This document shows, in pieces, positions 17,073 to 25,161 of a DNA stretch of 30,717 nt (position 1 is its first letter; every line of letters starts with the position of its first letter). Made by a program: the position numbers and the translations under genes. The notes under the pieces are model-generated. The model was not told the DNA's origin, did no database searches, and saw only the letters and a list, made by a program, of their open reading frames with translations. The DNA comes from a virus: positions 1 to 30,717 of the IMG/VR virus record IMGVR_UViG_3300022539_000361, one strand, 5' to 3'.

Positions 17073-17342
17073 TTACTTCTTCCCCCTCAATAAATCAAAA
17101 CCGCCACAAGCGGTTAGACCAATAATAATGGCAGGTAGCAATGATTGAGGAACAGATTGATATATCATTATGCCAAGTGCAATACCTATTGAAACAAAAG
17201 GCATAAATTCCTTCGCAAGAGAGTTGATTATAATTGGCATACCATTGGCTTTAAGGATTCTCTTTATAACCTGTATTATAGTTGCCACAACGGGTACAAG
17301 TGCCAACATTGCAGGTGTCAATTCTACATTAAGATTCTCCAT
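17073..17342 (-). CDS. holin-like membrane protein
   Basis: This 89-residue protein has three hydrophobic stretches: about residues 8-28 (TPAMLALVPVVATIIQVI), 44-60 (FMPFVSIGIALGIMIYQ) and 65-80 (LLPAIIIGLTACGGF), with a basic RGKK tail. Size and layout fit a phage holin, which would permeabilise the inner membrane at lysis. The ATG at 17342 has a GAAAGGAATAGAA ribosome site and is preferred over a start ten codons upstream. It overlaps the end of the DUF115-like gene. No endolysin is visible in this window. Confidence 0.65.
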   Translation of the reverse strand: MENLNVELTPAMLALVPVVATIIQVIKRILKANGMPIIINSLAKEFMPFVSIGIALGIMIYQSVPQSLLPAIIIGLTACGGFDLLRGKK

Positions 17343-17970
17343 TTCTATTCCTTTCTTTCCAAAATTGTTCACAACCTACTTTCGGGAAGACATCTAAATC
17401 ACTATTATCTGTAACATTGATAACTTCCCTTCCAGGAAACAGTTTCTTCAAATCTATCGACACTCTTGTAAATCCTTCAATGAATTTCTCATACACAGCT
17501 TTATTTGGCTTGTTTACTAAATTGTTATGCCAATTAGACCTTCCATCTTTGGATAAGTGCATATCAAATCCTAAGAGGAAAATTCGCTGGGCACCGAGTA
17601 TTAAAGCAAGATTGACTGCTGCTGCACCTGTATTCTTATTCCAACCAAGGGCAAGAGCACTTAACCCTTTACCCTTACGTGGCATCGTCCATAACCAACT
17701 TAACCTTGTATTGCGTAATTGACTTGCATTAGTGAATAGGATACCTTTGTAACTTTGAAGCTCCCTCTGATATTTGCGAAACCATTTAGGGTCACCAAAA
17801 ATGCAAATCTTGCAAACCTTCTCACCCAAAGTAAAAGCTGAATTGCATCCTATGGTCAACTCATCCTTAAGCAAACTCCAATCAAAGTTTTGCTCTCTCA
17901 AAGAATCGCCACCACCGATGATAAAGACATCCTCACCTTCCCATTTAGCTTCTGGAATCCAATGAGGCAT
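17329..17970 (-). CDS. DUF115/MptE-like Rossmann protein, copy 2
   Basis: This 213-residue protein is a distant relative of the gene at 1091-1747. It shares VFIIGGGDSL near the N-terminus, a TIGCNSAF strand, GAAAVNLALILGA, the IFLLGFDMH motif and a nearby SNWHNN segment. The family has a Rossmann-like fold and is common in phages, where the reaction is not established; glycan or nucleotide-sugar chemistry is an inference. It is placed between an acidic protein after the capsid gene and the holin-like gene. Confidence 0.7.
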   Translation of the reverse strand: MPHWIPEAKWEGEDVFIIGGGDSLREQNFDWSLLKDELTIGCNSAFTLGEKVCKICIFGDPKWFRKYQRELQSYKGILFTNASQLRNTRLSWLWTMPRKGKGLSALALGWNKNTGAAAVNLALILGAQRIFLLGFDMHLSKDGRSNWHNNLVNKPNKAVYEKFIEGFTRVSIDLKKLFPGREVINVTDNSDLDVFPKVGCEQFWKERNRNGES

Positions 17971-23867: not shown

Positions 23868-24056
23868 TCATCTTATCTCTACATTTATAAAAAGGCAGCC
23901 TTTATAATGCCTAAAAGAATGTAACTTATATATCGGTATATTTAATTCTTCACTGGCTATTAAACAGGCGATTTGTAGATAACTCATATATCTCGCTCCC
24001 CTATGGTCAAAGATATCGTACTTCCTTTTTATTATATCTCTCATTGATATTTTCAC
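23868..24056 (-). CDS. small unknown protein, GTG start
   Basis: This 62-residue protein starts at a GTG with an excellent AAGGAG seven bases upstream; an ATG four codons later is less well placed. The sequence (MRDIIKRKYDIFDHRGARYMSYLQIACLIASEELNIPI in parts) is basic and helical. The final FINVEIR resembles a strand. No family is recognised. It is the first gene after the structured RNA region and its strong hairpin. Confidence 0.6.
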   Translation of the reverse strand: MKISMRDIIKRKYDIFDHRGARYMSYLQIACLIASEELNIPIYKLHSFRHYKGCLFINVEIR

Positions 24057-24078
24057 TCTATCTCTCCTTGCTAATAAT

Positions 24079-24109
24079 GCCCCCGCCGATTACCCTTACC
24101 GACGGGGGC
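24079..24109 (-). terminator. 12-bp GC-rich hairpin closing the RNA region
   Basis: The minus strand folds as GCCCCCGTCGGT, loop AAGGGTA, ATCGGCGGGGGC, a 12-bp stem with two G-U pairs. No T run follows on this strand, so it is either an imperfect terminator or a protective 3' stem of the RNA upstream. It is the strongest hairpin in this part of the window. Confidence 0.6.
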
Positions 24110-24193
24110 GGTTTATAATATGGGTACAAACCATATCTGCGATGATTAGCAATTGTTAAGATTCTCCGTTTAAGTCATCTCTAAGTCTCATAC

Positions 24194-24222
24194 AACCTGC
24201 TCTACCACTGAGCTACCCCTTC
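24194..24222 (-). tRNA. 5' half of permuted tRNA-like domain
   Basis: The minus strand gives acceptor GAAGGGG, TA, D stem GCTC, D loop AGTGGTA, D stem GAGC, and then AGGTT. This is a canonical bacterial D arm. It lies downstream of its 3' partner in the direction of transcription. Confidence 0.6.
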
Positions 24223-24244
24223 GGTTATAATCTATAATGACAAA

Positions 24245-24273
24245 GAAGGGGAATGGAATCGAACCATTGACCA
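24245..24273 (-). tRNA. 3' half of permuted tRNA-like domain
   Basis: The minus strand gives TGGTC (variable-loop-like), T arm AATGG-TTCGATT-CCATT and acceptor CCCCTTC, exactly complementary to the 5' acceptor at 24216-24222. No CCA is encoded. Flanking ATGAC (24278-24274) and GGTTAT (24290-24285) pair with GTCAT and ATAACC in the 22-base linker, which would enclose this half in a precursor stem. Confidence 0.6.
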
Positions 24274-24426
24274 GTCATAAAAAGATAACCTTCGACCTAA
24301 CAAACATCGCAAGGTTCAGACTTGGAGCAATAATCTCAAACTGATATGACATAGTCCCTAAGACCTTTGTCATTTTAGACTAACCCTGAGTCTAAGCCTT
24401 TTAAGCGTCCCACGGACGCCTGCTCT

Positions 24427-25161
24427 CTATTTACTTGTAAATATATAGTTGAGGATATTTTTACCAAACCCTTTTTGCTCAACTACTGTGACACTATTTG
24501 CTTCTTCCCTTGCCACCTTAACGGCATCCTGAAGTTTCTCAATGCGTTCAATGATGGCATCACGCTCTTTTTCAGGTATTGCTCCCGAAAGATGAATCGT
24601 TGTCCAATGCCCTATTGTCTTATCAACCTTAATTAATTCTGTTTGTGCCGGATGTTCTGTAGTTACAGGATACTTGACAATAACTTCAACTTTCTTCTGA
24701 GTCTTAACTGTCTTCTCAGGCTCAGTTACATAACAATTCTTTGCCTCATCCAACTTCCAAACTCTATCTGTTGGCAAAGTAGGTAGATTAGTCGCCAAAG
24801 TTCGTAAATCGATAAGTTGCTTTTCAAGGAACAATAATACTGAAACAGGTACATCCTCCAAAATCGCAACACCATTTACAATTATAGAAGCCTTGGCAGA
24901 AGTATTTGCACATTCCTGCGTTGCCACAATATTAAGGAAACCTTCTAACTTCCCTTGAACAATCTTTAGTCCATCACTCACACGAAGTTGAACTGCTCGA
25001 CTTTCCGGTGGAAATACCTCACCCTCTTCTTCCTTTGGCAAATAAGTCCGAGCAATTCCAGTTATTCTATCTGGATACCAACCACGATGAATCTCTATTA
25101 AAAGTTTCTGTGCTTTTGTCTTTCTGCCCTGTACTAAGGCAATAACTTGATTGAGTCTCAT
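24427..25161 (-). CDS. unknown protein, DUF7873-like
   Basis: This 244-residue protein starts MRLNQVIALVQGRKTKAQKLL and has ITGIARTYLPKEEEGEVFPPESRAVQLRV, an arrangement that I associate with a conserved family of unknown function (DUF7873-like) in actinobacteria and their phages. The middle has repeated hydrophobic strands and VLLFLEKQLIDLRTLATNLPTLPTDRVWKLD. The C-terminal third ends in a helical segment (KERDAIIERIEKLQDAVKVAREEAN). A GGAAAGGAATAAATT ribosome site precedes the ATG. It is flanked on both sides by tRNA-like RNAs, so a role in RNA handling is possible but unproven. Confidence 0.65.
   Translation of the reverse strand: MRLNQVIALVQGRKTKAQKLLIEIHRGWYPDRITGIARTYLPKEEEGEVFPPESRAVQLRVSDGLKIVQGKLEGFLNIVATQECANTSAKASIIVNGVAILEDVPVSVLLFLEKQLIDLRTLATNLPTLPTDRVWKLDEAKNCYVTEPEKTVKTQKKVEVIVKYPVTTEHPAQTELIKVDKTIGHWTTIHLSGAIPEKERDAIIERIEKLQDAVKVAREEANSVTVVEQKGFGKNILNYIFTSK

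Follow-up and report, generated by a model that had tools for sequence, protein, structure and literature searches.

A permuted tRNA-like module downstream of a DUF7873 gene

What is encoded in the 348-base gene-free gap behind the DUF7873 protein gene of the virus record IMGVR_UViG_3300022539_000361? We analysed all 30,717 nucleotides (nt) of this record, hereafter the window; a blastn search with its DNA found no close relatives among named phages. The initial annotation had read the gap as a permuted transfer RNA (tRNA)-like RNA, with the 3' half encoded before the 5' half, and had considered a permuted group I intron-exon unit as its source. The conserved permuted tRNA-like RNA, distinct from any standard tRNA or transfer-messenger RNA (tmRNA), stands, while the group I unit finds no support. 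The permuted module is genuine, and it is one domain of a structured RNA of ~300-450 nt encoded just downstream of the DUF7873 gene. This RNA is conserved, follows a recurrent stem-loop plan, usually carries a second arm, and is tightly linked to and co-occurs with DUF7873; its identity as a DUF7873-linked structured RNA is almost certain.

On the minus strand, at 24268-24199, a T arm and the 3' strand of an acceptor stem are followed by a 22-nt linker, the acceptor 5' strand, the dinucleotide TA and a D arm, which is the permuted order. All seven acceptor pairs (GAAGGGG/CCCCTTC) form, as the annotation had said. Dinucleotide shuffling of the 348-base gap never recreated the full module (0 of 20,000 shuffles), and the window contains no other copy. 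Neither half belongs to a standard tRNA or tmRNA call: ARAGORN reported none anywhere in the window, and at gathering scores Rfam gave no match in the 348-base gap. We also agree that no ordinary anticodon stem-loop forms. The anticodon stem is present but lacks a 7-nt loop, and it enters a further helix, H, through a conserved internal loop.

Homologues keep the two acceptor strands complementary through compensatory changes; a loss of this complementarity was what the initial annotation had named as a refutation. In 23 aligned sequences, 99.0% of the cells in helix H, the T arm, the acceptor stem and the D arm are paired, with a covariation score of 0.937 (0.215 +/- 0.021 after shuffling); pairing falls to 47.6% or less when the alignment is slid. 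Helix H was identified only after the tRNA part, and it stands out against both slides and partner shuffles. It starts two bases after UCGA and stops exactly at UUAAACG, and in this register 70% of positions pair, whereas shifts of 1-3 bases give 31-35% and shuffled partners give 38%, at most 46%; the 70% is a low estimate, several anchors having been misplaced. An outer helix, K, is seen by eye in many homologues, with partial support from the alignment. The flank pairings proposed originally (AGGTT/AACCT, AGACTT/AAGTCT and GAG/CTC) are not the conserved ones, as homologues favour helix H, helix K and the anticodon stem. Pairing between linker and flank is likewise no family feature, the linker varying from 4 to 90 nt across homologues.

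Linkage to DUF7873

The protein encoded directly upstream matches Pfam PF25283 with an E-value of 2.7e-82 (276.6 bits; cut-off 27). The first 16 viral relatives found through this protein all have one or two permuted modules directly downstream of the gene. DUF7873 occurs in 73 phage records from very different hosts, with an unannotated gap of 350-500 nt behind the gene in most regions that we read, and in at least 315 viral and at least 495 bacterial sequences overall. Under a strict module scan, 60 of 88 distinct loci have the module downstream of DUF7873 and none has it upstream or antisense, and it turned up in 0 of 1760 shuffles; the 60 positive loci have 60 different acceptor sequences.

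We built a covariance model, R1, from the arm that carries the module described above (module 2). It scores 104.8 bits on the window (E 3.7e-24), against a background of 20-29 bits for tandem tRNA genes. About 80 of 90 viral loci have an R1 match of at least 45 bits just downstream of DUF7873 on the same strand, and in complete phage records with a strong match the best one adjoins DUF7873. Vibrio and Microcoleus phage records gave weak matches only, near the tandem-tRNA background. A chance product of tandem tRNA genes was considered and rejected: the background under loose models is real, but the module lacks the outer tRNA halves and scores 105 bits.

Among bacterial loci, 40 of 43 have an R1 match inside the fetched flanks of DUF7873. 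Of 61 Streptomyces genomes, 32 have DUF7873, and 31 of these also have the RNA, always close to the gene; the RNA occurs in 0 of the 29 others (Fisher p 1.4e-16). The surrounding chromosomal contexts in Streptomyces are varied, and open reading frames within 2.5 kb revealed no apparent conserved operon partner in bacteria. Two Herpetosiphon genomes and one Chloroflexi metagenome-assembled genome contain the RNA without adjoining DUF7873; in the complete Herpetosiphon aurantiacus genome (L191/L195) the RNA lies at 1.172 Mb and DUF7873 at about 3.008 Mb, ~1.8 Mb apart. Action in trans is therefore probable, and no other observation speaks for it as strongly as these unlinked cases.

The range is wide. 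Phages of Gordonia, Arthrobacter, Rhodococcus, Rhizobium, Vibrio and cyanobacteria are represented, as are genomes of Actinomycetota, Chloroflexota, Acidobacteriota, Planctomycetes, Deinococcales and Spirochaetales. Apparently undescribed so far, the RNA is widespread among phages and among bacteria, Streptomyces included.

Architecture of the RNA and its heads

The 348-nt window RNA folds with a minimum free energy (MFE) z-score of -4.33. It spans the whole gap and terminates in a hairpin at 24109-24079. Around module 2 the order of elements is helix K, UCGANN, helix H, the anticodon-like stem, the T arm, the acceptor 3' strand, the N-CCA position and the linker, followed by the acceptor 5' strand, the D arm, a CUNARNNYUGA-like loop, H', UUAAACG and K' (Table 1).

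Most homologues have a second arm with a permuted head of its own, module 1 (37 of 38 loci of one set). Most copies of the RNA therefore have two heads, and the window retains one. In L137 (Streptomyces) and in the viral loci L008, L010 and L090, module 1 has been lost and a short hairpin stands in its place, as in the window; these losses look independent. A further feature of the 3' region in several homologues is a hairpin of ~5 bp with a 7-nt YUNNNAA-like loop, seen at 24135-24119 in the window and in L002, L003, L004, L010, L030, L032, L037 and L107. These free hairpins resemble anticodon arms, with apparent anticodons UGA, UGU, GAA, GUU and others.

Table 1. Positions of the DUF7873 gene and of the elements of the structured RNA in the window (A3, alignment of homologues).
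Feature	Position	Strand	Evidence
DUF7873 protein gene, 244 amino acids	25161-24427	minus	Pfam PF25283
Structured RNA in its probable full extent	24420-24079	minus	MFE z -4.33; conserved elements at both ends in homologues
Plain hairpin ATGACA..TGTCAT replacing tRNA-like module 1	24373-24346	minus	Position relative to L002/L003; equal loss in L008, L137
Arm 1 motif GATTATTGCTC, consensus about GAYTMTYGCTC	24335-24325	minus	Recurrent in most homologues
Outer helix K, 5' strand TTGTTA	24303-24298	minus	Partner 24158-24153; by inspection in many homologues; partial alignment support
Internal loop UCGANN, 5' side	24295-24290	minus	TC invariant, GA >90% in A3
Inner helix H, 5' strand GTTATCT	24289-24283	minus	97.1% paired; each of the six pairs tested changes on both sides
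Anticodon-stem 3' strand TGACT, no anticodon loop	24277-24273	minus	4-5 of 5 pairs in 49/50 homologues, permissive register search
T arm of tRNA-like module 2, AATGG-TTCGATT-CCATT	24268-24252	minus	100% of cells paired in A3
Acceptor stem, 3' strand CCCCTTC	24251-24245	minus	99.4% paired; 7/7 pairs covary
Linker between acceptor strands, 22 nt	24244-24223	minus	N-CCA position is TTTG in the window
Acceptor stem, 5' strand GAAGGGG	24222-24216	minus	Covariation with 3' strand in A3
D arm GCTC-AGTGGTA-GAGC	24213-24199	minus	100% of cells paired in A3
Anticodon-stem 5' strand GGTTG	24197-24193	minus	Partner 24277-24273
Internal-loop motif, CUNARNNYUGA-like, here TATGAGACTTAG	24192-24181	minus	Visible in homologues
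Inner helix H, 3' strand AGATGAC	24180-24174	minus	Covariation in A3
UUAAACG, internal loop 3' side	24173-24167	minus	Near-invariant in A3
Outer helix K, 3' strand TAACAA	24158-24153	minus	Inspection of homologues; alignment support partial
Free-standing anticodon-arm-like hairpin, 7-nt loop UUUGUAC	24135-24119	minus	Similar 5-bp/7-nt hairpins in several, not all, homologues
3' terminal GC-rich hairpin, 12 bp, loop AAGGGUA	24109-24079	minus	Loop motif GGN(U/C)A in 59/70 homologues

The T loop, D loop and acceptor of the heads are tRNA-like. Encoded N-CCA directly follows the acceptor in 37-43% of modules (48 of 130 viral, 24 of 56 bacterial), which exceeds both the ordinary tRNAs of the same viral loci (53 of 252, 21%) and chance (1 in 64). 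This frequency suggests that the head ends may be matured like tRNA ends. The D arms resemble differing tRNA isotypes among homologues, and a GAAA-capped arm takes the anticodon position in module 1 of L002/L003. Elsewhere in the window, at 25312-25209 on the minus strand, we noticed a normally ordered tRNA (Rfam, 52.3 bits; no ARAGORN call) with an insert of ~32 nt in the anticodon loop and an enlarged D loop. It may be a degenerate tRNA, a tRNA with a mini-intron or another tRNA mimic.

Relation to known RNAs and possible function

We know of very few tRNA mimics with a permuted body, the bacterial examples known to us being YrlA and permuted tmRNA. Both are parts of machines for RNA or protein quality control. 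The open-access literature yielded no permuted tRNA-like phage RNA besides Y RNA or tmRNA. The plan and role of YrlA have been described (PMC8394870, PMC7790460), including its function as a Y RNA that links Ro60 with PNPase. YrlA with Ro60/Rsr has the same arrangement of outer stem, internal loop, inner stem and tRNA-like head with the T arm before the D arm; its gene also adjoins that of its partner protein, and it too occurs in bacteria and phages. The present RNA differs in having DUF7873 as partner instead of a TROVE protein, in its own conserved loop UCGANN/UUAAACG, in its frequent N-CCA and in usually having two heads, not one; its partner, its heads and its wide range also set it apart from permuted tmRNA.

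The explanation we favour overall, and consider somewhat better than an even bet, is a Y-RNA-like, tRNA-mimicking ribonucleoprotein (RNP) containing DUF7873, with its function inferred. A direct complex between RNA and protein is likely. RNA and DUF7873 would then form a two-component system in which the permuted piece is one head and the stem is the binding site of the protein, with the conserved internal loop as the probable point of contact. The heads may be bait for cellular proteins that recognise tRNA, such as RNase P, CCA and modification enzymes and EF-Tu, or alternatively may be bound by a nuclease such as PNPase, as in the case of Y RNA. The RNP could in this way be tethered to, or compete for, the tRNA-handling machinery, with DUF7873 plugged in as Y RNA does for Ro60 and PNPase. 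At least some heads may be opened by tRNA-end processing, as in permuted tmRNA, because N-CCA is frequent; the pieces would be kept together by base pairing. The tethering or decoy function, which leans on the analogy with Y RNA, is tentative. It is also possible that the RNA represents a new RNP class of bacteria and viruses: a trans-acting, two-headed RNA, perhaps opened and aminoacylated at both ends, which together with a DUF7873 protein of new fold would act on translation or tRNA metabolism by a mechanism common to neither Y RNA nor tmRNA.

Several points weigh against a Y-RNA-like RNP. The evidence is computational throughout, transcription, processing, binding and function all being predicted. 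On homologues the YrlA model scores 25-41 bits, not above pairs of tandem tRNA genes (27-39 bits). The DUF7873 protein, modelled by AlphaFold2 with a predicted local distance difference test score of 90, matches no structure confidently, shows no known RNA-binding fold among the matches listed, and carries a net charge near zero. Many copies have just 3-5 nt beyond the CCA, which may leave the acceptor closed as a hairpin. Linkage would equally fit a cis-acting 3' element, except in the unlinked Chloroflexi cases. Finally, the aligned loci had been preselected for a paired module, which inflates the pairing percentages of the T arm, acceptor and D arm; the shuffles, the slides, helix H and the co-occurrence in Streptomyces are less biased.

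Weak fold matches of DUF7873 were set aside, namely a TolC-like one (Z 7 at 12-14 Å) and a crAss-like phage protein (TM 0.45). The latter, BFVD A0A7M1RW91 from crAss-like phage cr118_1 (probability 0.96, TM 0.45/0.58), is a possible distant relative. We found no open-access paper on DUF7873, and the RNA gives a first lead to its function. With the cassette in about half of the sampled Streptomyces genomes, this lead can be tested in laboratory strains.

A multi-piece tmRNA-like RNA, with heads cut by RNase P and 3'-end enzymes, a real CCA end, aminoacylation and one or two charged ends acting at the ribosome, is unlikely. The N-CCA statistics and the well-formed tRNA elbow speak for it. Permuted two-piece tmRNA (RF04321, RF01849-RF01851) also has the acceptor 3' part before the 5' part, a short linker and the same CCA position. 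However, tmRNA models score far below their cut-offs: a relaxed Rfam scan of 23900-24600 gave 16.6 bits for beta_tmRNA (cut-off 84), and the homologue L108 gave 25.9 bits. The RNA body is different and the D stem is canonical, and the third acceptor pair is A-U in the window, not the G-U alanine signal of tmRNA; on these last two points the initial annotation was right. Isotype-like features vary among homologues. No conserved tag frame was noticed, although no systematic search was made.

Could the RNA instead be a tRNA decoy in the arms race between phage and host, its heads absorbing or inhibiting tRNA-directed nucleases or toxins and DUF7873 serving as stabiliser or effector? Its occurrence in phages, often within tRNA clusters, and the varied isotypes that its heads resemble would fit, and competitive inhibition of a tRNase has been proposed for YrlA (PMC7790460). 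Yet heads without an anticodon loop offer no bait to ordinary anticodon nucleases, hits to any one PADLOC defence family are confined to at most a single member, and about half of the sampled Streptomyces genomes carry the RNA in varied chromosomal contexts. We regard this role as distinctly improbable.

A divergent true Y RNA (YrlA) bound by the host's Ro60 is very unlikely. The overall plan is alike, and the relaxed Rfam scan of 23900-24600 gave a full-length YrlA match (RF02553, 36 bits against a cut-off of 69, E 3.9e-6). Membership in YrlA was nevertheless rejected, since the scores of the family are no better than those of tandem tRNAs; one of these genomes also contains probable Y RNAs, and those reach 51-57 bits. 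Of 17 records, 13 lack TROVE (PF05731), namely the window record, itself a fragment, and 12 of the remaining 16; where found, TROVE does not adjoin the RNA. Phage RHph_Y65 (L188, 138300-140700) has, near its TROVE gene and ~4 kb from its DUF7873 RNA, a separate pair of permuted tRNA-like modules. These modules are probably a true pair of phage Y RNAs, located in a phage that also has a DUF7873 RNA.

Circularly permuted tRNA genes, as known from some archaea and red algae, share the gene order and the short linker placed between the halves. A true gene of this kind, its ends spliced or ligated into a decoding tRNA directly or by a permuted intron, would also account for the anticodon-stem pairing, but both a decoding permuted tRNA and a permuted intron-exon unit are most improbable because the heads form no anticodon loop and a group I intron was looked for without success: conserved internal-loop motifs occupy the anticodon place, module 1 has GAAA-capped arms, the heads lie inside a larger conserved RNA with varying isotype features, and RtcB as splicing partner is found in just 3 of 17 records. 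ARAGORN made calls on nearly all rotated sequences, with inconsistent anticodons; with long introns allowed and circular input, these calls were given no weight. The group I unit shares the order of the exon halves only. No RF00028 match appeared up to E 10 in a relaxed cmscan of 23900-24600 in native order, the rotated order lying outside the scan, and we saw no group I core in homologues. In the ordinary MFE fold, the two strands once put forward as S element and P7 are each other's pairing partners.

Other features

In a related viral contig, L005/L006 (1692-1911; 1-1053), group I intron matches of 44.7 and 34.7 bits fall just under the cut-off. The minus strand of the window also encodes two similar-looking small proteins (1091-1747 and 17329-17970) with IIGGGSSL/IIGGGDSL near the start, one of which has a weak Pfam match to MptE-like. 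At 257-1081, again on the minus strand, lies a likely homing-type HNH endonuclease gene with a weak NUMOD3 match.
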